Of a DNA stretch of 52,494 bases, positions 9,747 to 39,784 are shown in pieces (within the stretch, counting starts at the first letter, position 1; each line of letters starts with the position of its first letter). The notes below the pieces were generated by a model. It was not told where the DNA came from. It saw only the letters and a program-made list of their open reading frames with translations, and ran no database searches. Position numbers and translations under genes: made by a program. Source of the stretch: Patescibacteria group bacterium (GTDB lineage Bacteria > Patescibacteriota > Minisyncoccia > UBA6257 > 02-FULL-45-10c); NCBI GenBank assembly GCA_018896875.1, contig JAHILT010000017.1:1-52494 (forward strand), given 5' to 3'.

Positions 9747-9783
9747 GAAATCCACCCTAACCCTCCTTTAAAAGGAGGGAACG
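9747..9783. repeat. Solo copy of the CCCTCCTTTAAAAGGAGGG repeat
   Basis: AAATCCACCCTAACCCTCC, then TTTAAAAGGAGGGAAC. Nearly identical to the repeat on the right of the DUF559 gene (39746-39784); related copies are at 32631-32659 and 39356-39392. Confidence 0.8.
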
Positions 9784-31336: not shown

Positions 31337-31366
31337 AGATTTAAGATTTAAGATTTAGGATTTAGG
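31337..31366. repeat. Left inverted repeat of the four-helix-bundle gene
   Basis: AGATTTAAGATTTAAGATTT then AGGATTTAGG. It covers the stop codon and last codons (FLNPKS). Its inverted partner is at 31748-31775. Confidence 0.7.
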
Positions 31367-31746
31367 AATGATTTAGATTTAGAAATGAGTCCTTGTAATA
31401 ATTTGTGCGTACAATTAGCTTGTTCGGCTATTTGTTGTAAATCAGTTTGTTTTAAATATCCGATGTCTTTAGCGATTAATAATTGATTTTTTAATTCAAT
31501 TAAAGATCCTTGAGAAATATAATAAAATTGTATTTTTTCTTTATAACCCTGCCTTCCAAACCCCTCGGCGATATTACTAGTGATTGAAATAGCTGCTCGA
31601 CGCATTTGATTGGTTAATGAATATAATTCATCTTTTGGGAATTTTTTGGTTAATTTATATATCATTATTATTAATTTATGTCCTTCTTGCCATACCTTTA
31701 AGTCGGTAAACGATTTTATTTTAGTTTTTCTTTGTTCGAAATCCAT
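31348..31746 (-). CDS. Four-helix bundle protein (23S rRNA intervening-sequence family)
   Basis: 132 residues of the family named for ORFs in 23S rRNA intervening sequences. Seen: FTDLKVWQEGHKLIIMIYKL, FPKDELYSLTNQMRRAAISI, TSNIAEGFGR, and FYYISQGSLIELKNQLLIAK. It sits inside the secretion locus between two genes on the same strand and is flanked by inverted AT-rich repeats that touch both ends of the ORF. This suggests a mobile single-gene cassette. The biochemical function of the family is not established. Confidence 0.92.
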   Translation of the reverse strand: MDFEQRKTKIKSFTDLKVWQEGHKLIIMIYKLTKKFPKDELYSLTNQMRRAAISITSNIAEGFGRQGYKEKIQFYYISQGSLIELKNQLLIAKDIGYLKQTDLQQIAEQANCTHKLLQGLISKSKSFLNPKS

Positions 31747-31747
31747 A

Positions 31748-31775
31748 TTCTTAAATCTTAAATCATAAATCTTTT
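31748..31775. repeat. Right inverted repeat of the four-helix-bundle gene
   Basis: ATTCTTAAATCTTAAATCAT then AAATCTTT, the reverse complement of the repeat at 31337-31366 apart from one added AT. It begins one base upstream of the start codon. Confidence 0.7.
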
Positions 31776-31780
31776 ATCAT

Positions 31781-32539
31781 CTAATCTAGATGAGTTTCTA
31801 TAAAATCTTTTATTTCTATACTAAGTATAACAAATTCTTCATTTGTTTTTAACAGCTCGTTAGCAGCAAGTATAGCTGATACGGGATCTTCTCCAGCATT
31901 AGCGCCTTTTTCAAATATATTTTTTTTAATACTTAATAATTCAATTTCTTTTTTATGAATATTTAAGGCTAGTCTAGGTATTGTGATGTTGTATAAAGCA
32001 TCTATTGCATACTTGTACGCTTCTTTGATTTTTACAAAATCATAAATATCTAAGCTTTCCGGATTACTCATCATAGAAGCGGGCATTTTTTTACTAGCAG
32101 TGATTAAAATATTATTGAAAGAATTAAAATATTCTAGAAGAGCTTCTTTGTTATTATCTTCGGAAATTTTTAAAGAAGAATTGTCTATTTTGGGTCTAAG
32201 GCTTGCTGGATTAAAGTTTTTTTGGGCTTCTACAATTAAATCTTCAACCATTTTTTCCGGCGCTGGAGCGTTAATCATAGTTTCTCCGTCAATATTCTTG
32301 AGCCCTTCTAAATTTTTTTCAGCAATACCAGCGCTAATTTTTTCGGTCAAAGCATCGGTTAAATTTTTATTATTACTTGTTCCTATAAGTTCAATTTCTA
32401 CAGGATTATTCTCAATAACATTTTCAGTATTGCTTATTTTTGCTGGAGCTGGTGAATTAGAATTAGAGACAATTAAATAAGCTCCAGTCAGTCCGAGCCC
32501 TAAAATTAGAGTAGTTATTATGATTTTAAACACACTCAT
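31781..32539 (-). CDS. Membrane-anchored helical protein, probably first gene of the secretion locus
   Basis: 252 residues. An N-terminal anchor (IIITTLILGLGLTGAYLIV, about 6-24) is followed by a Pro/Asn-rich linker and a mostly helical extracytoplasmic domain (KIKEAYKYAIDALYNITIPR; AILAANELLKTNEEFVILSI). No family is recognised. It precedes the 535-residue gene, with only the four-helix cassette between them. That may mean the cassette split an operon. Confidence 0.5.
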   Translation of the reverse strand: MSVFKIIITTLILGLGLTGAYLIVSNSNSPAPAKISNTENVIENNPVEIELIGTSNNKNLTDALTEKISAGIAEKNLEGLKNIDGETMINAPAPEKMVEDLIVEAQKNFNPASLRPKIDNSSLKISEDNNKEALLEYFNSFNNILITASKKMPASMMSNPESLDIYDFVKIKEAYKYAIDALYNITIPRLALNIHKKEIELLSIKKNIFEKGANAGEDPVSAILAANELLKTNEEFVILSIEIKDFIETHLD

Positions 32540-32630
32540 TACTTATTATTATACAATAAACAATCAAGGATTTAAAATTAAAAATTAGGATATTCTGCCA
32601 TTTTTTCCCTGAAGTCAAATCGTCATTCTT

Positions 32631-32659
32631 ATTCCCTCCTAAAGGAGGGGGATAATTTT
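32631..32659. repeat. Solo copy of the CCTCCTAAAGGAGG repeat at the rsmA 3' end
   Basis: ATTCCCTCCTAAAGGAGGGG then GATAATTTT. The stretch ATTCTTATTCCCTCCT matches the reverse complement of the right DUF559 repeat exactly. It supplies the last residues (IIPLL) and the stop of rsmA. Confidence 0.7.
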
Positions 32660-33439
32660 GGCCAATTCTAGAATATTATTTATAGTCAAATTCTGTGGTC
32701 TACAATTTTCTGGAATATTAAGAGATCTTAATATATTAATTAAATCTTCTTTTGAAAATTCTGTGCCATTTTTTAAATTATTAAGAAGCGTTTTTCTTGG
32801 TTGTTTAAAAATAATATGAATAAGTTTATAATAGTTTTTTGTTTCTAATTCATTAGTAGCTAATGTTTTAGTGACTAGTTTTATAATCGCAGAGTCTACT
32901 TTCGGCGCAGGACTAAAATCTTCGGATTTAAGTTTAAAAATTATTTCTGGATTAGCCCAAAATTGTGTAGCAGCGGACAAAAGATTTGTTTTGTTATGTT
33001 GGGCACAAATTCTTTCTGCAACTTCTTTTTGAATCATCAATACCGTTAAACTTGGCTTGTTTTTTAATTCGCTTAATATTCTTAACAATTTCCCAGTAAT
33101 ATAATAAGGAATATTGCCTACAATCTTGTAATTAGAATTAGGAATAATGAATTGTGAATTATGAATGAGATTGGGCAATATTCTCAATATATCTCCTTGA
33201 ATAATCTTAATATTTTTGTCTAACGTAAACTTTTGTTGAAGAAGTTGGGCGAGTCGAGCATCTTTTTCAATCGCAATTATTCTTAATTCGTGATTCTTAT
33301 TTCTTAATTCATTAGTTAGTTCTCCATGTCCTGAACCAATTTCAATAATAGTTTCGTTTGGCTTGATATCTAAAGTCGCAATAATTTTAGTAATTGCTGA
33401 TTTATTTTTAAGAAAATGTTGTCCAAGACGTTTGTTCAT
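32639..33439 (-). CDS. rsmA: 16S rRNA (A1518/A1519) dimethyltransferase RsmA/KsgA
   Basis: Dimethylates two adenosines in the 3' hairpin of 16S rRNA with S-adenosylmethionine. Seen: LGQHFLKNKSAITKII, motif I ETIIEIGSGHGELT, IAIEKDARLA, IIQGDIL, catalytic NIPYYITGKLL, MIQKEVAERICA and VDSAIIKL. The length (266) is normal. Two short non-conserved blocks, residues 44-54 (ELRNKNHELRI) and 92-105 (IHNSQFIIPNSNYK), look like AT-rich repeat insertions lying in surface loops next to motifs. The C-terminus comes from a dispersed repeat. Confidence 0.95.
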   Translation of the reverse strand: MNKRLGQHFLKNKSAITKIIATLDIKPNETIIEIGSGHGELTNELRNKNHELRIIAIEKDARLAQLLQQKFTLDKNIKIIQGDILRILPNLIHNSQFIIPNSNYKIVGNIPYYITGKLLRILSELKNKPSLTVLMIQKEVAERICAQHNKTNLLSAATQFWANPEIIFKLKSEDFSPAPKVDSAIIKLVTKTLATNELETKNYYKLIHIIFKQPRKTLLNNLKNGTEFSKEDLINILRSLNIPENCRPQNLTINNILELAKIIPLL

Positions 33440-33473
33440 AAATATAGGTTGTAATTTTAATTTAAATTATTAA

Positions 33474-35267
33474 TTATTCTATATACATATATTCATCATC
33501 CCAATCTGATTGTATTTTGCCATAGCTTGTAATTTTTGAAAAATCAATTAACTCCTTTGGTATTTCCCCTAGAAATCTTGAAGGAATATTGTAAAAACTA
33601 ATAAATAATTTTTTTTTGGCGCGAGTCATTGCCACGTACATAAGCCTTCTTTCTTCTTCTATCTCTTCTGGATAAAAAATAGATTGTTCGTGCGGTAAAA
33701 GTTTTTCATTACAACCAACTATAAAAACATTATCAAACTCCAATCCCTTAGAAGCATGGATAGTCATTAATTTTACAGCTTTTGTTAAAAGTTTTGGTTT
33801 ACCGTCAGAAGCCGACATTAAGCTTACTTTTTCTAAAAATTCATAAGGATCTTTATGCTGAGAAGCAAAATTAATTAATTCTTTTATATTCTCCATTCTT
33901 TCGGATGGATTTTTAAAGCTTTTGGTTAGGTAATTTGTATAATCTATTTTTTTAAAAAAATAATTTATAATTTGAACCAAAGTTAATTCTTTGGCTAATT
34001 TTGGAAGTTCTTGAATTATTATTTTACTTTTAATTTTTCCAAAACTTTTATTAATTCTTTCAATACTGGCGTCATCTTTTGGATTAAAAGCGTAGCGTAA
34101 TCCAGCAATTAAGTCTTTAATTTCTTTTCGGGCATAAAATTTAAGTCCACCGTAAATTTCATAAGGTATTTTATTTTGAATAAGTGTCTGTTCTAGCGCT
34201 CGAGATTGCGCGTTGGTTCTGTATAAGACAGCAACTTCTCCAATTTTTTCTTTATTGCGAATAAGTTTTACTATATTTGCGCATATTCCCCGTGCCTCTT
34301 CTTCGGAATTTTGATAAGTAGTTATTTTTATAAGATCGCCTTCTTTATTATTGGTCCATAATTTTTTTGGCTTTTGTAGTTTATTGTATGCGATAAGATT
34401 AGAAGACGCCGAAACGATAACTGAAGTTGAGCGGTAGTTTTGTTCTAATTTTATTATTTTTGCCCTTGGCCAATCTTTTTCAAAATTTAAAAAATTTCTA
34501 AAGTCTGACCCCCTGAATTTATATATACTTTGCGCATCATCTCCAATAGCGAAAACATTTTGATATTTTCCAGCGAGCAGTTTTATTAATTGATATTGAG
34601 CAGTGTTAATATCTTGATATTCATCTATTAATATATATTCATATTGATCTTGATATTTATTTAAAACGCCCGATTTTTCTTTAAAAATTTTAACGACTTT
34701 AGTGATAAGATCATCAAAATCAAAAGAATTACTTTTTTGTAAATTATTTTCATATTCTTTATAAATTTCTAATGACTTGATTTCATAATTGTCTTTTGGG
34801 CTTAAATTGTCTACATCTATTAATTTACTTTTAATTGAAGATATTTTTTTCAAAATAACTAAAGGATTAAATTTTTCCTTAGAAAGATTTTTATTTTTAA
34901 GAATTTTTTTAATTAAACTCAAAGAATCTTTATCGTCAAAAATGGTGAAATTTTTTTCGCGCTTGAAATAGGTGATTTCAGTTTTTAATATTTTTGCTCC
35001 GAAAGAATGAAAAGTACCGACAAACAACTTATTTTCAAGGGTTTGTGATTCGTATGAATCAAAAACCCGCCTTCGCATTTCATTAGCTGCTTTGTTCGTA
35101 AAAGTTATGGCAATTATTTTTTCTGGAGACACGTCTGACTTTAATAATCGTATCAATCTATTTACTAATGTTTTGGTTTTGCCAGATCCGGCACCAGCCA
35201 CGATTAATAATGGACCATTTTTATGTTTTGTAGCTTCTTGTTGTTTTTCATTGAGTCCGTTTTCCAT
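33474..35267 (-). CDS. UvrD/PcrA/Rep-type superfamily 1 DNA helicase
   Basis: 3'-5' helicase for repair or replication restart. Seen: MENGLNEKQQEATKHKNGPL, Walker A VAGAGSGKTKTLVNRL, ITFTNKAANEMRRR, FVGTFHSFGAKIL, Walker B ILIDEYQDINTAQ, AIGDDAQSIYKFRGSDFRNF, LEQNYRST, AVLYRTNAQSRALEQTL, MTIHASKGLEFDNVFIVG and YVAMTRAKKKLFIS. I place the start at the ATG at 35267 (MENGLNEKQQ). The frame is open to an ATG at 35312, but that ATG lies in the inverted repeat of the GIY-YIG cassette. About 597 residues is short for PcrA (about 720), lacking the variable C-terminal tail. Confidence 0.93.
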   Translation of the reverse strand: MENGLNEKQQEATKHKNGPLLIVAGAGSGKTKTLVNRLIRLLKSDVSPEKIIAITFTNKAANEMRRRVFDSYESQTLENKLFVGTFHSFGAKILKTEITYFKREKNFTIFDDKDSLSLIKKILKNKNLSKEKFNPLVILKKISSIKSKLIDVDNLSPKDNYEIKSLEIYKEYENNLQKSNSFDFDDLITKVVKIFKEKSGVLNKYQDQYEYILIDEYQDINTAQYQLIKLLAGKYQNVFAIGDDAQSIYKFRGSDFRNFLNFEKDWPRAKIIKLEQNYRSTSVIVSASSNLIAYNKLQKPKKLWTNNKEGDLIKITTYQNSEEEARGICANIVKLIRNKEKIGEVAVLYRTNAQSRALEQTLIQNKIPYEIYGGLKFYARKEIKDLIAGLRYAFNPKDDASIERINKSFGKIKSKIIIQELPKLAKELTLVQIINYFFKKIDYTNYLTKSFKNPSERMENIKELINFASQHKDPYEFLEKVSLMSASDGKPKLLTKAVKLMTIHASKGLEFDNVFIVGCNEKLLPHEQSIFYPEEIEEERRLMYVAMTRAKKKLFISFYNIPSRFLGEIPKELIDFSKITSYGKIQSDWDDEYMYIE

Positions 35268-35301
35268 GTATGATATTATAACCGTATTAAAACTAAATTG
35301 A

Positions 35302-35321
35302 ATCCCACACATAACTTACAC
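35302..35321. repeat. Left 20-bp terminal inverted repeat of the GIY-YIG cassette
   Basis: ATCCCACACATAACTTACAC, the perfect reverse complement of 35579-35598. The helicase frame extends into it. Confidence 0.9.
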
Positions 35322-35326
35322 TGATT

Positions 35327-35584
35327 ATGTATTGCGTTTATTTATTACAATCGTTAAAAAACAAAAGTTTATATGTGGGTTGTACATCTGATTTAAAAAA
35401 AAGATTATTAATACATAATCAAGGAAAGTCATATCATACTAAAAAATATATGCCATGGAAATTAATATATTGTGAAGCTTATATCTCAAAAAAAGATGCT
35501 TATAGTCGCGAGCAATCGTTAAAGTTATGCGCTCAAGGATTACGTCGCCTTAAAGAAAGGCTTAATAATTCGTTGGTTGTGTAA
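35327..35584 (+). CDS. Small GIY-YIG domain endonuclease-like protein
   Basis: 85 residues, the single GIY-YIG nuclease fold of the UvrC/YhbQ type: MYCVYLLQSLKNKSLYVGCT, SDLKKRLLIHNQGKSYHTKK, and YCEAYISKKDAYSREQSLK with the catalytic Arg and Glu. The first motif is CVYLLQS..LYVGCT instead of GIY..YIG. The ORF starts 6 bases inside the left 20-bp inverted repeat and its stop lies in the right one, so the cassette is almost only this gene. It separates the divergent helicase and M23 peptidase genes. Confidence 0.93.
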   Translation: MYCVYLLQSLKNKSLYVGCTSDLKKRLLIHNQGKSYHTKKYMPWKLIYCEAYISKKDAYSREQSLKLCAQGLRRLKERLNNSLVV

Positions 35585-35598
35585 GTTATGTGTGGGAT
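35579..35598. repeat. Right 20-bp terminal inverted repeat of the GIY-YIG cassette
   Basis: GTGTAAGTTATGTGTGGGAT. It contains the GIY-YIG stop (TAA) and the first possible ATG of the M23 gene (35588). Confidence 0.9.
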
Positions 35599-36628
35599 GA
35601 AAAATTTTTTATATTGGTTGCAAGAGCATAGAATGACCGTAATCCCGGTTATTTTAGTCATTGTTATTTCAATTTTTAACATAAAGCTTCTTGCTTACTT
35701 AGAAAGACCATGGGGTGTTTTTAGCGCTAATGATTTTGCTTTTGCTGAGAGTCCTTATGAGAATAAAGAAAGTTTTAATGAATTAGATAGCGCTACAAAT
35801 AGTTTAGCATCAACATATAGTATTGATTATTTTAATACAGAAGAACAAATTAATTTTATTGTGATAGATAGCGGCTATCTTCTTAATAAAAATAATCCTT
35901 TAAGCGATATTTTGCCGTCACGAGATGGACTCCTTATATATAAAGTACAAAAAGGAGATAATCTAGCGAAAATTGCGACTAATTTTGGCATTTCTTTAAA
36001 TACTATTTTGTGGGCCAACAGAGATCTCAATTCTAATCTTCTTAAGATTGGGCAAGAAGTAGTAATATTGCCAGTATCAGGAGTTCTACATAATATACTG
36101 TTAGGAGATACGATAGAGTCTATATCCGAAAAATATTCAGTAAGTGTTAATAAAATTGTCGCGTATAATATTGGTTTGTCTCCGTCTAAATTAGAGTCAA
36201 GACAAACTATTATAGTTCCTTACGCCAAGCCATTACAAAGCTCGTCTATGGCTCAAAAATTACCTAATTATCCTGGCTATTTTGCTATCCCAACAACTGG
36301 ATGGAATTGGGGAATACTTCATAATTATAATGCGGTAGATATTGCCAATGCTTGTGGCACTTCTGTTTATGCCTCAGCTGAAGGCCTAGTGATTGAAGAG
36401 CTTCCTTCTGGTTGGAACGGAGGGTTTGGAAGATATATTTTAATTGAGCATCCAAATAATACTAAAACTAGATATGCGCATATGCAAAAAAATACAGTTT
36501 CTGTTGGTGATTATGTTTTACAAGGAGATTTGGTTGGTTATATAGGAAATACTGGACTCACTCATGGCCCTACTGGTTGTCATCTTCATTTTGAAATAAT
36601 TGGGGCTAAGAACCCCTTCGCTAAATAG
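35588..36628 (+). CDS. M23 family peptidase with two LysM domains
   Basis: Cell-wall endopeptidase of the NlpD/EnvC/DipM type. Residues of about 16-35 are an anchor (MTVIPVILVIVISIFNIKLL). LysM 1 reads YKVQKGDNLAKIATNFGISL and LKIGQEVVILP; LysM 2 reads LGDTIESISEKYSVSVNKIV. The M23 domain starts near residue 245 with HNYNAVDIANACG (first zinc ligands H and D), then RYAHMQ and HLHFEIIG (HxH). All zinc ligands are present, so it should be active. The start could be ATG 35588 (MCGMKN) or ATG 35597 (MKNFLYW). The first lies in the inverted repeat, so I prefer the second. Confidence 0.93.
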   Translation: MCGMKNFLYWLQEHRMTVIPVILVIVISIFNIKLLAYLERPWGVFSANDFAFAESPYENKESFNELDSATNSLASTYSIDYFNTEEQINFIVIDSGYLLNKNNPLSDILPSRDGLLIYKVQKGDNLAKIATNFGISLNTILWANRDLNSNLLKIGQEVVILPVSGVLHNILLGDTIESISEKYSVSVNKIVAYNIGLSPSKLESRQTIIVPYAKPLQSSSMAQKLPNYPGYFAIPTTGWNWGILHNYNAVDIANACGTSVYASAEGLVIEELPSGWNGGFGRYILIEHPNNTKTRYAHMQKNTVSVGDYVLQGDLVGYIGNTGLTHGPTGCHLHFEIIGAKNPFAK

Positions 36629-36653
36629 TTTATTGACGTGATTTTTAAAATAA

Positions 36654-36683
36654 ACCCCCACACTTATATATAAGTGTGGGGGT
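36654..36683 (-). terminator. Terminator-type hairpin between M23 and the 218-residue gene
   Basis: CCCCCACACTTA pairs with TAAGTGTGGGGG around TATA. A T-rich run (TTTATTTTAAAAAT) follows only in the minus direction, so it probably ends the minus-strand gene. Confidence 0.75.
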
Positions 36684-36700
36684 GGGTTGGAAGGAAAACA

Positions 36701-37357
36701 TTAGGCGTTGTTATCTAATACCTCATTTACAACGTCTCCTAATGTGAATCCTTTTTCGGGCATCTTTTTCCCTAGGCGAGCAATAACTTTTTCAAAAAGA
36801 GCTTCAATAATTTCTGCTTGCTTTTTTTGAAGTCCGTTCCCTTTCTTTAGTTTTGCTATCAGATGTTGGACGCCGAGTATTCCTTCGTCGTCTGTAACAG
36901 GAAGTCCTAGTCCGTAAGGAGATATAATATGTATAGGTCCAGGAAGTTCTTCTCTGTTTTTGTATCCAAGAAGTTTCCATCCATAAACATATTCATCTGC
37001 GCTTTCTTTAAGGCTACGTCCTAGCCCTAAGAAGCCCCTTATCTCTTCACCAAGATAATAGAATATCTGTGGTCCTGCTTTGTATCTGATGTAAGCAAGT
37101 TGGACAGACTGAGCCCATTCACGCCGATATTTACTAGGAATTTCTTTGAGCGCGTCAACAAATTGTTTGCGCTTTTCTTCGGCTTGTTTACCTAGCTCTT
37201 TTTCTGTCGGCTGTTTTTTGGCTTTTGCCCATTTGAAAGCTCTGTGCGCTTTCATAGCATTAATAGCTAATATAATAAGTTTTTTGAACTTATCAAGGAT
37301 AGCTATTTTTTCAAGTATCACTCGTTCTGCTCGCATTTCTTCAATTTTCTTATTCAT
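36701..37357 (-). CDS. Conserved-looking hypothetical protein, cytoplasmic
   Basis: 218 residues from ATG 37357, chosen because a clear GGAGGG site lies just upstream; the frame stays open 29 codons further but that part covers the promoter. It is helical and basic at the N-terminus (MNKKIEEMRAERVILEKIAI), followed by YRREWAQSVQLAYIRYKAGP, YYLGEEIRGFLGLGRSLKES and GPIHIISPYGLGLPVTDDEG. No family is recognised. It is monocistronic, with its own promoter (37416-37444) and terminator, which suggests independent regulation. Confidence 0.6.
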   Translation of the reverse strand: MNKKIEEMRAERVILEKIAILDKFKKLIILAINAMKAHRAFKWAKAKKQPTEKELGKQAEEKRKQFVDALKEIPSKYRREWAQSVQLAYIRYKAGPQIFYYLGEEIRGFLGLGRSLKESADEYVYGWKLLGYKNREELPGPIHIISPYGLGLPVTDDEGILGVQHLIAKLKKGNGLQKKQAEIIEALFEKVIARLGKKMPEKGFTLGDVVNEVLDNNA

Positions 37358-37415
37358 TTGTCTACCCTCCAATATTAAGTTTTTTTGAAGTTTTAACTTC
37401 AGTGTTCTGTTGAAT

Positions 37416-37444
37416 AATATGTCATAAAATATTATAAAAGTCAA
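37416..37444 (-). promoter_or_regulatory. Promoter with extended -10 for the 218-residue gene
   Basis: On the minus strand TTGACT (37444-37439), 17-base spacer, TGACATATT with -10 CATATT (37421-37416). Same architecture as the strong plus-strand promoters. Confidence 0.65.
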
Positions 37445-37519
37445 TAAGAGGATAAAATTAGATTGACTGTGTTAGTTATTTTATATTAAACTAATGATAA
37501 TTAATTAATTTTTATTATT

Positions 37520-37780
37520 ATGATAGAAGAAAAAGATTTACTTAAATTAAAAACAGACTTAGAAAAACGTCAAAAAGAATTGGAAGAAAAAATTGAAAAA
37601 TTAAGCAAGCCTGTTGAGTTCGGAGATGATACTGAAGGAAGTTCTTCTGATGAGGAGTCTGATGAAACAGAAGAATTTGGCAATAATCTTGCTGTGGCTG
37701 AAATTCTTAAAAAGGAATTAGTGGATATTAAGAGCGCGTTGGAAAGAATTGAGAAAGGAGAATATGGCGAACATCTCTAA
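37520..37780 (+). CDS. DksA/TraR-like coiled-coil protein lacking the zinc finger
   Basis: 86 residues. A coiled coil (DLLKLKTDLEKRQKELEEKI), an acidic loop (GDDTEGSSSDEESDETEEFG), a second helix (NNLAVAEILKKELVDIKSAL) and ERIEKGEYG match the N-terminal half of TraR/DksA proteins. In the family, EKGEYG is followed at once by the C4 zinc finger (Cys-x2-Cys). Here it is followed by EHL and a stop, and the comM start lies inside the last codons. Either a truncated gene or a finger-less variant; the acidic tip between the helices that contacts RNA polymerase is present in form. Confidence 0.75.
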   Translation: MIEEKDLLKLKTDLEKRQKELEEKIEKLSKPVEFGDDTEGSSSDEESDETEEFGNNLAVAEILKKELVDIKSALERIEKGEYGEHL

Positions 37781-39302
37781 AGTTTTTTCTGCATCTATTG
37801 AAGGTGTAGAGGCAAGCTTGATAGAAGTGGAGACCGATATTAATATCGGTCTTCGTAATTTTAGTATAGTAGGACTGGCTGATAAGTCTCTTTCTGAAGC
37901 TAAGGAGCGTGTTGATTCGGCTATTAAAAATAGTGGAATTAAGCCTCCTTCAAAAGAAAATAAAAAAATTATTGTTAATCTTGCTCCGGCTGATATTAAA
38001 AAAACTGGCTCACAATATGATTTGTCTATAACTGTTGGCTATTTACTTGCAAGTGAGCAAATAAAAAAATTTGAATCAAAAAATAAAATATTTGTTGGTG
38101 AATTAGCATTGGACGGATCCTTGCGAAGCGTTCGTGGCATTTTGAATATTGTGCGTATGTCCAAAGAAAAAGGATTTCAAGAAATATTTATGCCCACAAG
38201 CAATGCGGTTGAAGCAGCAATAATCGATGGAATTAAAGTGTTTGGATTTAATAATTTAAATGAAATAATTGCCCATTTAGAAGGTAGAGATATTAAAAAT
38301 TGCCAACCTAAAACATTAATTGAGCCAATTACTTTTTCTGAATATCAGACAGTAGATATATCTGATATCAAAGGGCAAGAAAATGCTAAGCGAGCCTTAA
38401 CAATAACTGCTGCTGGAGGACATAATATTTTAATGCAAGGCAGTCCTGGTGCGGGAAAAACGATGCTTGCTCAAGCATTAATTTCTATTCTTCCTCCTCC
38501 CTCTCTTCAAGAAATTATTGAGATAACGCAAATATATAGTGCTGCGGTTCTTTTAGGCAAAAAATCTTTTATTAATTGGAGACCTTTTCGATCTCCTCAT
38601 CAGACTGCTTCTCCAGCCTCAATTATAGGAGGAGGACAGAATCCTCGTCCAGGAGAAATTAGTTTAGCACACAGAGGAATTCTTTTTTTAGATGAATTAC
38701 CAGAATTTAGGCGTGATATTTTAGAAGCATTAAGACAGCCAATAGAAAGTGGTAAAGCGTTTATTTCTCGCGCTAAAAACAATCTAGTTTTTCCAGCTAA
38801 ATTTGTTTTAGTTGCTGCAATGAATCCTTGTCCTTGTGGATATTATGGAGATACCGAAAAAGAATGTCGTTGTAGTGCTTTTGAAGTTTTTAGATACCAA
38901 AAGAAAATTTCAGGCCCTCTTTTAGATAGAATTGATTTACAATTGGATGTGCCGAGAGTGAAATTAGATGAATTAAAAAAGAAAAATAGTAATAATAAAT
39001 TAACAGATGAGATAAGAAGCAAAATAATTAAAGCTCGTGAAATTCAAAAAGAGCGGTTCAAAGATTTTGGGATTTTAACTAATTCGGAAATGAGCTCTAA
39101 GCTTTGCGAAGAAATGATTAAATTAGATAACGAAGCTGATAATTTCCTAAAAAATATCTTTGAAAAATCTTTAGTCTCTGCTAGAGGTTATTATAGGATT
39201 TTAAAAACTGCTCGCACTATTGCAGATTTAGAAGAATCCAAAGATGTTAATGTTTCGCATTTAGCCGAAGCTTTTCAATATCGTTTAAAAGAAAAAAAAT
39301 AG
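37764..39302 (+). CDS. comM: YifB/ComM family magnesium-chelatase-like AAA+ ATPase
   Basis: ComM is a helicase that promotes branch migration of single-stranded DNA in natural transformation. Seen: an N-terminal subdomain (VEASLIEVETDINIGLRNFS; IVGLADKSLSEAKERVDSAI), KGQENAKRALTITAAGGHNI, Walker A QGSPGAGKTMLAQAL, FRSPHQTASPASIIGGG, GEISLAHRGILFLDELPEF (Walker B) and NPCPCGYYGD with the Cys cluster. I place the start at ATG 37764 (MANISKVFSA), preceded by AAAGGAG inside the DksA-like gene, not at 37749. Together with pilB and the secretion locus it fits a DNA-uptake capacity. Confidence 0.95.
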   Translation: MANISKVFSASIEGVEASLIEVETDINIGLRNFSIVGLADKSLSEAKERVDSAIKNSGIKPPSKENKKIIVNLAPADIKKTGSQYDLSITVGYLLASEQIKKFESKNKIFVGELALDGSLRSVRGILNIVRMSKEKGFQEIFMPTSNAVEAAIIDGIKVFGFNNLNEIIAHLEGRDIKNCQPKTLIEPITFSEYQTVDISDIKGQENAKRALTITAAGGHNILMQGSPGAGKTMLAQALISILPPPSLQEIIEITQIYSAAVLLGKKSFINWRPFRSPHQTASPASIIGGGQNPRPGEISLAHRGILFLDELPEFRRDILEALRQPIESGKAFISRAKNNLVFPAKFVLVAAMNPCPCGYYGDTEKECRCSAFEVFRYQKKISGPLLDRIDLQLDVPRVKLDELKKKNSNNKLTDEIRSKIIKAREIQKERFKDFGILTNSEMSSKLCEEMIKLDNEADNFLKNIFEKSLVSARGYYRILKTARTIADLEESKDVNVSHLAEAFQYRLKEKK

Positions 39303-39355
39303 TTTTTATTTTTTCAATTTCCAATTTACGAATATACAAACAATGTGTGACTTAG

Positions 39356-39392
39356 TTCCCCTCCTTTAGGAGGGGTTAGGGGAGATTTAAAA
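39356..39392. repeat. Left inverted repeat of the DUF559 cassette
   Basis: TTCCCCTCCTTTAGGAGGGG then TTAGGGGAGATTTAAAA. It aligns with the reverse complement of the repeat at 39746-39784 over about 34 bases with few mismatches. Confidence 0.8.
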
Positions 39393-39394
39393 TA

Positions 39395-39745
39395 ATGCAT
39401 CTTTCATATAATAAAAATCTTAAAAAATTAAGTCGTCAGTTGCGTGCTAATTTTACTGACGCTGAAAAATTACTTTGGTCAAAAATAAGAAAAAAACAAA
39501 TAAAAAATTATCAATTTTTTAGACAAAAGCCAATTGGAAATTATATAGTTGATTTTTATTGCGATAAAGCAAGGTTAGTAATTGAAATTGATGGTGGGCA
39601 ACATTATGAAGATAAAAATATGAGAGATGATAAAATTAGAGAAGTTTTTTTAGAAAAATAAGGATTAAAAATAATGAGATTTACAAATTTAGATGTTTTG
39701 AAAAATACATACAATGTAGTAGAAAAAATTTACAATGAAATTTAA
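39395..39745 (+). pseudogene. DUF559 endonuclease-like gene broken by one in-frame stop
   Basis: The 88-residue open part reads LSYNKNLKKLSRQLRANFTD, AEKLLWSKIRKKQIKNYQFF, RQKPIGNYIVDFYCDKARLV, IEIDGGQHYED: a DUF559 (Vsr-like PD-(D/E)xK) protein with its catalytic E-x-D-G-x-Q-H core. TAA at 39659-39661 interrupts it. The same frame then continues GLKIMRFTNLDVLKNTYNVV, EKIYNEI to a second TAA at 39743-39745, which is exactly the family's C-terminal strand and helix. One substitution (for example TTA to TAA) would explain the break. It is flanked by inverted copies of a dispersed repeat. Confidence 0.88.
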
Positions 39746-39784
39746 AATCCACCCTAGCCCTCCTTTAAAAGGAGGGAATAAGAA
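39746..39784. repeat. Right inverted repeat of the DUF559 cassette
   Basis: AATCCACCCTAGCCCTCC then TTTAAAAGGAGGGAATAAGAA. It nearly matches the solo copy at 9747-9783 and the inverted copy at 39356-39392. Confidence 0.8.

Follow-up and report, generated by a model that had tools for sequence, protein, structure and literature searches.

The closest described systems to the GIY-YIG element analysed here are the insertion sequences with terminal inverted repeats (TIRs), together with the miniature inverted-repeat transposable elements (MITEs), and the free-standing GIY-YIG homing endonuclease genes. The element is one of three one-gene units located between positions 31337 and 39784 of the 52,494-nt contig JAHILT010000017.1 (assembly GCA_018896875.1, candidate phyla radiation (CPR)/Patescibacteria), which is called the window at its full length; the other two units encode an S23 and a DUF559 protein. 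With TIR insertion sequences and MITEs, the GIY-YIG element shares TIRs at unrelated sites, short duplications of 4-5 bp, a single gene, multiple copies, gene-less derivatives, and empty sites. However, its only gene encodes an 85-aa nuclease and no DDE, HUH or S/Y recombinase, and the whole element, of about 300 bp, is registered on start codons and supplies the A of the ATG. With the homing endonuclease genes it shares the nuclease domain, the catalytic residues and the insertion in conserved genes, including those of rRNA, whereas it differs from them in its TIRs, its 4-5 bp duplications, its non-homologous sites and its MITEs, with no intron or intein.

GIY-YIG-coding, intron-less insertions have been reported in CPR rRNA genes (PMC11270868). 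That work deals with rRNA sites only, and the term "inverted repeat" is absent from its main text. These insertions are probably the rRNA subset of the elements described below, among which there is also a 23S rRNA copy (L101). Regarding prokaryotic GIY-YIG transposons with TIRs, none was found among the titles and abstract openings retrieved from the open-access literature.

The GIY-YIG element at start codons

The window element is inserted at the start codon of a gene for a LysM and M23 peptidase protein (Table 1). Its arms pair perfectly over 20 nt (35302-35321 / 35579-35598) once bases 35302 and 35598 are included. Since the terminal A of the element and the duplicated TGAA together make ATGAA, the host gene retains its own start. 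The stop of the possible leader open reading frame (ORF) sits 2 nt ahead of the GIY-YIG ATG, which suggests translational coupling between both. The initial annotation had missed the exact insertion at the start codon, the rebuilding of the ATG and the existence of the MITE family presented below.

Two other features were observed around this insertion. As a result of the insertion, an in-frame ATG remains upstream at 35588-35599 (ATG TGT GGG ATG), so that a mechanical ORF call adds a doubtful MCG extension to the host protein. Moreover, a perfect palindrome (ACCCCCACACTTATATATAAGTGTGGGGGT, 36654-36683) lies just past the M23 gene; it is terminator-like, and its letters resemble CCC-ended TIRs.

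The genome set consisted of 151 draft genomes (the own genome, G000, and 150 relatives), whose loci were studied through searches and fetched stretches, and host genes were named from their N-terminal sequences. In the own genome, the copies C2 (the window element), C18 and C45 have the ends TCCCACACATAACTTACAC...GTGTAAGTTATGTGTGGGA in common and different surroundings, and each adjoins the ATG of the downstream gene. A TIR search of this genome without ATG bias gave 23 matches, all of them in elements at start codons, and the reversed-pattern control gave none. This search also revealed a family of MITEs with the ends TCCCACACATAACAAAGAC, all at start codons, with sizes of about 100-270 nt (most near 130 nt, the longest including compound copies). 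Within the own genome, the TIR searches yielded no larger element bearing these ends, and the elements with room for a gene carry the GIY-YIG nuclease. An apparent 846-nt element (L031, G000:C74) was rejected, being in fact two MITEs at two start codons. One lies at the start of a ychF-like gene and the other at that of a 3-methyladenine glycosylase-like gene, with 0.6 kb between them.

Concerning the relatives, 70 exact 13-mer arms were found across 11 of the 21 genomes searched (0 with the reversed pattern), the smallest form being 27 nt long and made of the ends only (L056). Altogether, 40 distinct elements present window-family ends, some of their loci having been found through an ATG-biased pattern. 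A host ORF begins exactly at the junction in 37 of these 40, and 32 show identical 4-bp flanks, which are TGAA (30) or TGGA (2). In the unbiased searches, which comprise the own genome and G002 only, all 26 elements are at starts. As a reference, the window has 147 TGRA sites in noncoding DNA or at gene starts, and 18 of them (12%) are start codons. Essential genes such as lepB, trpS, ssb, clpP, gatB, pgk and smpB have been struck, and the unrelated host genes have only TGRA in common at the junction.

The gene order up535-p252-ksgA-uvrD-M23-dksA-comM-nusA was located in six relatives, although incomplete in some of them, and none of the six carries the S23, GIY-YIG or DUF559 gene there. The search for empty target sites proposed in the initial annotation was thus successful for all three units, and the mobility of the three is supported because these sites are empty in relatives. 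One of the six, G006, presents in the uvrD/M23 gap a short MITE belonging to the GIY-YIG family, which is reversed in orientation and does not lie on a start codon. Furthermore, the same start codon can have different occupants: the lepB start is occupied by a GIY-YIG element in G000 and by a MITE in G003, and the gene start at L054 carries a MITE in G013 and the element of another family in G012, with no insertion there in G000.

Table 1. Positions in the window of the GIY-YIG, S23 and DUF559 units and of related repeats
Feature	Positions	Strand	Remarks
GIY-YIG left TIR	35303..35321	+	TCCCACACATAACTTACAC; matches right arm exactly; arms recur in C18, C45 and other genomes
GIY-YIG right TIR	35579..35597	+	GTGTAAGTTATGTGTGGGA; overlaps nuclease stop; its final A doubles as the A of the host ATG
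Left target duplication copy	35299..35302	+	TGAA
Right target duplication copy	35598..35601	+	TGAA; with element base 35597 makes the start ATGAA
GIY-YIG nuclease ORF, 85 aa	35327..35584	+	PF01541, 6.6e-16; Y5, Y16, R26, H30 and E62 present
Possible leader ORF	35298..35324	+	TTG AAT CCC ACA CAT AAC TTA CAC TGA; opens in left target copy
Host gene struck at start codon, LysM + M23 peptidase	35597..36628	+	Start matches orthologues
S23 / 23S_rRNA_IVP protein, four-helix bundle, 132 aa	31348..31746	-	PF05635, 7e-39; TIGR02436
S23 arm, upstream of ORF	31742..31772	-	Degenerate heptad repeat
S23 arm, overlapping stop	31337..31367	-	Degenerate heptad repeat GATTTAA/GATTTAG
Left hairpin core of DUF559 unit	39359..39374	+	CCCTCCTTTAGGAGGG then GTTAGGGGAGATTT
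Right hairpin core of DUF559 unit	39758..39776	+	CCACCCTAG + CCCTCCTTTAAAAGGAGGG
DUF559 (Vsr-like nuclease) frame	39395..39745	+	PF04480; in-frame TAA at 39659-39661
Solo hairpin, DUF559 repeat family	32634..32649		
Solo hairpin, DUF559 repeat family	9761..9779		

Other GIY-YIG clades, their targets and the nuclease

GIY-YIG elements with other TIRs are built alike, nearly all of them with CCC at the outer ends and a size of about 280-330 bp. This build was also found in 18 of 24 and in about 20 of 23 further relatives, and the named hosts include Yanofsky-, Nealson-, Staskawicz-, Moran-, Falkow-, Buchanan- and Nomurabacteria as well as Omnitrophota. In the broader GIY-YIG set, duplications of at least 4 bp flank 27 of 51 elements, versus 14% in mismatched pairs.

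The start-codon targets of these clades are ATGAA, ATGAC, ATGAT and TATG, and the start is now GTG in L327, L333 and L341. Other landmarks are also struck. One of them is the -35 box, at the TTGA of TTGAC(A/T): in five of eight such insertions (leaving out L277, whose match was another TTGAC, and with L336 and L337 as near-copies) a -10 box within one mismatch is found at the right spacing, compared to about 10% of background sites. tRNA 5' ends (L302, L350, L355 and L360) and RNase P RNA (L097 and L278, where Rfam made no call) were read as targets from the sequence, and 23S rRNA (L101) was identified by Rfam. Apart from one tRNA, Rfam gave no match around 12 element loci. Group I introns, inteins or other RNA families were considered around the units and discarded, as there is no splicing element and the L101 intron is a separate insertion.

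Some of these loci show further particularities. In L101 the 23S rRNA gene carries, besides a GIY-YIG insertion bounded by inverted repeats, a group I intron inserted separately. In L222 (about 2400-2990, G000:C24), a GIY-YIG gene is found within a tandem series of tRNA-Ser 5' fragments; every fragment bears the hairpin CCCTGCCTGCCGATAGGTAGGG in the D-loop region, and an intact tRNA-Ser comes after them. In L344 (Nitrospirota), the GIY-YIG gene is flanked on both sides by the 3' half of a tRNA, the two copies forming a direct repeat; this is apparently a different tRNA-targeting arrangement.

The TIR type tracks the nuclease tree, with 10 changes versus a shuffled mean of 31.6 (0 of 200 shuffles as low) on a tree of few columns and many open forks. 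Genuine elements are confined to one of the two large nuclease clades, the other being mostly repeat-free. The catalytic residues are invariant across 51 element copies, save one gap, and the ratio of nonsynonymous to synonymous substitution rates (dN/dS) among nuclease copies is 0.08-0.17, which points to strong purifying selection. SLX1, a nuclease that cuts branched DNA, is among the nearest relatives of solved structure, which might loosely fit an enzyme that works on TIR cruciforms or hairpins.

Proposed mobilisation and alternative explanations

Considering these data, the GIY-YIG unit is interpreted as a minimal, self-mobilising element, with a probability of roughly 0.6. The nuclease would be the enzyme that mobilises it, that is, its transposase, and new copies would still be arising. 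The wider proposal, a new class of self-mobilising DNA consisting of a bare GIY-YIG transposase with its own CCC-ended TIRs, landmark-rebuilding insertion at start codons, -35 boxes or tRNA 5' ends, and expression through a translational relay that sets out from the host initiation site, is about evenly balanced.

The proposed mechanism involves a single nuclease of about 85 aa, encoded between TIRs of 14-25 bp in an element of about 300 bp, whose insertion duplicates a 4-5 bp target. For the window family this target is TG(A/G)A in start codons, and in other families, where the element ends in G, the ATG becomes GTG. The nuclease could cut its own ends and the target, and host repair would then fill the 4-nt stagger and produce the duplication. 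MITEs, which keep the ends only, could move in the same way. In addition, the insertion would borrow the initiation signal of the host gene and return the ribosomes to the host start, presumably restoring its expression. The geometry of several copies is consistent with such a relay. In them a short ORF begins at the left host start and ends about 10 nt or less from the nuclease ATG, and in L281, L327 and L330 the frame opened there runs straight into the nuclease ORF. At the other end, the stop of the nuclease ORF and the rebuilt host start share bases (ATGA/GTGA, offset -1) in L084, L094, L266, L281, L327 and L330, and in other copies the stop lies 7-35 nt ahead of that start.

If this interpretation is correct, a nuclease class would be added to the known transposition enzymes. 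Through its choice of target the element would do almost no harm even where bacterial genomes are most compact, with essential genes regaining their start codon. It would also be a candidate explanation for the rRNA GIY-YIG insertions of CPR bacteria that do not resemble homing (PMC11270868), and an enzyme of about 85 aa inserting DNA at ATGAA would have practical interest.

Several observations weigh against self-mobilisation by the nuclease. The relay geometry is not universal, as a coupled ORF is missing from some left copies and from all MITEs, so the hosts of MITEs must initiate translation in another way. Duplications are missing in three copies from two genomes (L006, L008 and L062), and some TIR hairpins of other genomes lie off start codons (L188, L189, L209, L214, L215 and L220). 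Eight MITE-bearing genomes (G003, G005, G006, G013, G038, G074, G088 and G101) show no nuclease of the window's close clade. GIY-YIG enzymes are not known to act as transposases, and no excision or insertion event has been observed, mobility being read from the sequence. It should be noted that L189, L209 and L214 (G005 and G038) present the same TIR letters followed by T-runs, and they look like terminators rather than start-codon insertions.

The alternative that survives best concerns only the choice of target and is compatible with the nuclease as mobilising enzyme. Insertion could be untargeted, with a loose TGAA/TTGA preference, and the copies seen today would be those that survived in compact genomes by regenerating a start codon, a -35 box or an RNA 5' end. 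This has a considerable chance of being right, somewhat short of even, as several different landmarks are struck with function rebuilt downstream, and some insertions away from starts exist. Nevertheless, the 26 of 26 elements at starts in G000 and G002 are difficult to reconcile with it, since about 88% of the noncoding-or-start TGRA sites of the window are elsewhere, and intergenic sites between convergent genes would be expected to be equally harmless.

It is less likely that the elements are passive, MITE-like sequences moved in trans by an ordinary transposase encoded elsewhere, with the GIY-YIG gene as a passenger. TIRs with a 4-5 bp duplication are the usual mark of DDE transposition, there are MITEs without a nuclease, and several genomes with MITEs show no nuclease of the same close clade. 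However, no longer element sharing these ends was found in the own genome, the association of TIR type with nuclease clade extends over genera and phyla, the nuclease copies are under strong purifying selection, and the gene-sized elements carry this gene.

Classical homing, in which the nuclease cuts one conserved site and homologous repair copies the gene, is very improbable: GIY-YIG nucleases are a homing family and copies do occur in rRNA, RNase P RNA and tRNA genes, but the loci are non-homologous, with only 4-5 bp in common, and present TIRs and duplications and no intron or intein. Finally, non-mobile cis-regulatory RNA modules forming a regulon at gene starts are the most disfavoured explanation, because the exact start-codon placement and the strong RNA stem of the TIRs (z -3.85) are outweighed by the target duplications, the empty orthologous sites, the alternative occupants of the same codon, the coding gene in some copies, the unrelated host functions and the absence of Rfam matches.

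The S23 and DUF559 units

The initial annotation had described the three units as single ORFs bounded by their own inverted repeats, with no transposase inside, belonging to families spread among CPR genomes. This description held well: all three units are present, with repeats far beyond the window, no recognisable transposase was found within them, and GIY-YIG genes were detected in 145 of the 151 genomes, S23 in 105 and DUF559 in 19 (6, 3 and 1 genes, respectively, in the own genome). In 100-nt flanks (p<=0.01), inverted repeats accompany 61/69 S23, 31/75 GIY-YIG and 5/5 DUF559 genes, versus 2/161 control ORFs of the same loci. Shuffle tests of the window units gave 0/200 (S23), 0/200 (GIY-YIG) and 1/200 (DUF559), and chance repeats in AT-rich DNA were ruled out by these tests and the controls. 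Repeats therefore prevail in the S23 and DUF559 families, while for GIY-YIG the expectation that most members carry them failed for the whole Pfam family and stood for the clade of the window copy. Repeat-only leftovers were also found, as GIY-YIG MITEs and DUF559 solo hairpins. On the other hand, the single mobilisation route suggested for the three families was not sustained, since clear target duplications exist only in GIY-YIG units and the kinds of repeat differ: true TIRs in GIY-YIG, degenerate 7-nt (heptad) arrays in S23 and GC hairpins similar to repetitive extragenic palindromes (REP) in DUF559. A repeat common to the three families was likewise ruled out, their arms being unrelated.

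The S23 arms of the window, of 31 nt, are 84% complementary, and the arms vary between copies while staying complementary. Their identity at lag 7 is 0.43, compared with 0.26-0.33 at other lags, and lag 7 is the best one in 77 of 138 flanks. S23 units are found in operons, with a same-strand ORF start within 250 nt in 61 of 69 units and a median distance of 38 nt to the next one. The evidence of a target duplication is weak (33% vs 15% in the control) and does not establish it. In Coxiella, the 23S intervening sequence carries tandem GACAGAT heptamers directly ahead of the S23 start (PMC4990558). It resembles the CPR units in having an S23 ORF between inverted repeats and heptamers like their heptad arms, which indicates one wider S23 family. 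However, the CPR units are mostly located between operon genes and not in rRNA, and their heptads make both arms; the window copy itself lies between protein genes and not in a 23S rRNA helix. Direct 7-nt TAACTGA repeats just ahead of start codons, whose spread is unexplained, have also been described, with no mention of S23 (PMC4679880). Those repeats might derive from S23 heptad units, which could explain their spread. The S23 unit would be a separate one-gene, repeat-bounded element allied to rRNA intervening sequences, and its mobility is suggested.

The DUF559 gene of the window is a pseudogene, as its ORF (39395-39661) ends at an in-frame TAA and the frame continues to 39745. All five full DUF559 members tested present flanking hairpins or other significant inverted repeats, and the own genome contains 29 hairpins of this family, of two asymmetric types and mostly solo. 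A nuclease gene flanked by a pair of inverted GC hairpins, together with solo copies genome-wide, recalls the arrangement of REP sequences and REP-associated tyrosine transposases (RAYT), but a DUF559 protein (Vsr-like; PF04480 only) takes the place of the Y1 HUH transposase. The titles and abstract openings retrieved from the open-access literature contained nothing about DUF559 with inverted repeats. This unit is seen as another separate one-gene, repeat-bounded element, allied to REP-type elements, whose mobility is also suggested.

Lastly, at 33130-33330 of the window and in the loci L184, L186 and L187, it was observed that ksgA has repeat-like in-frame stretches (LIHNSQFIIPNSN) and that uvrD and ksgA of some relatives show 30-80 extra alignment columns, which suggests in-frame repeat insertions in these genes.

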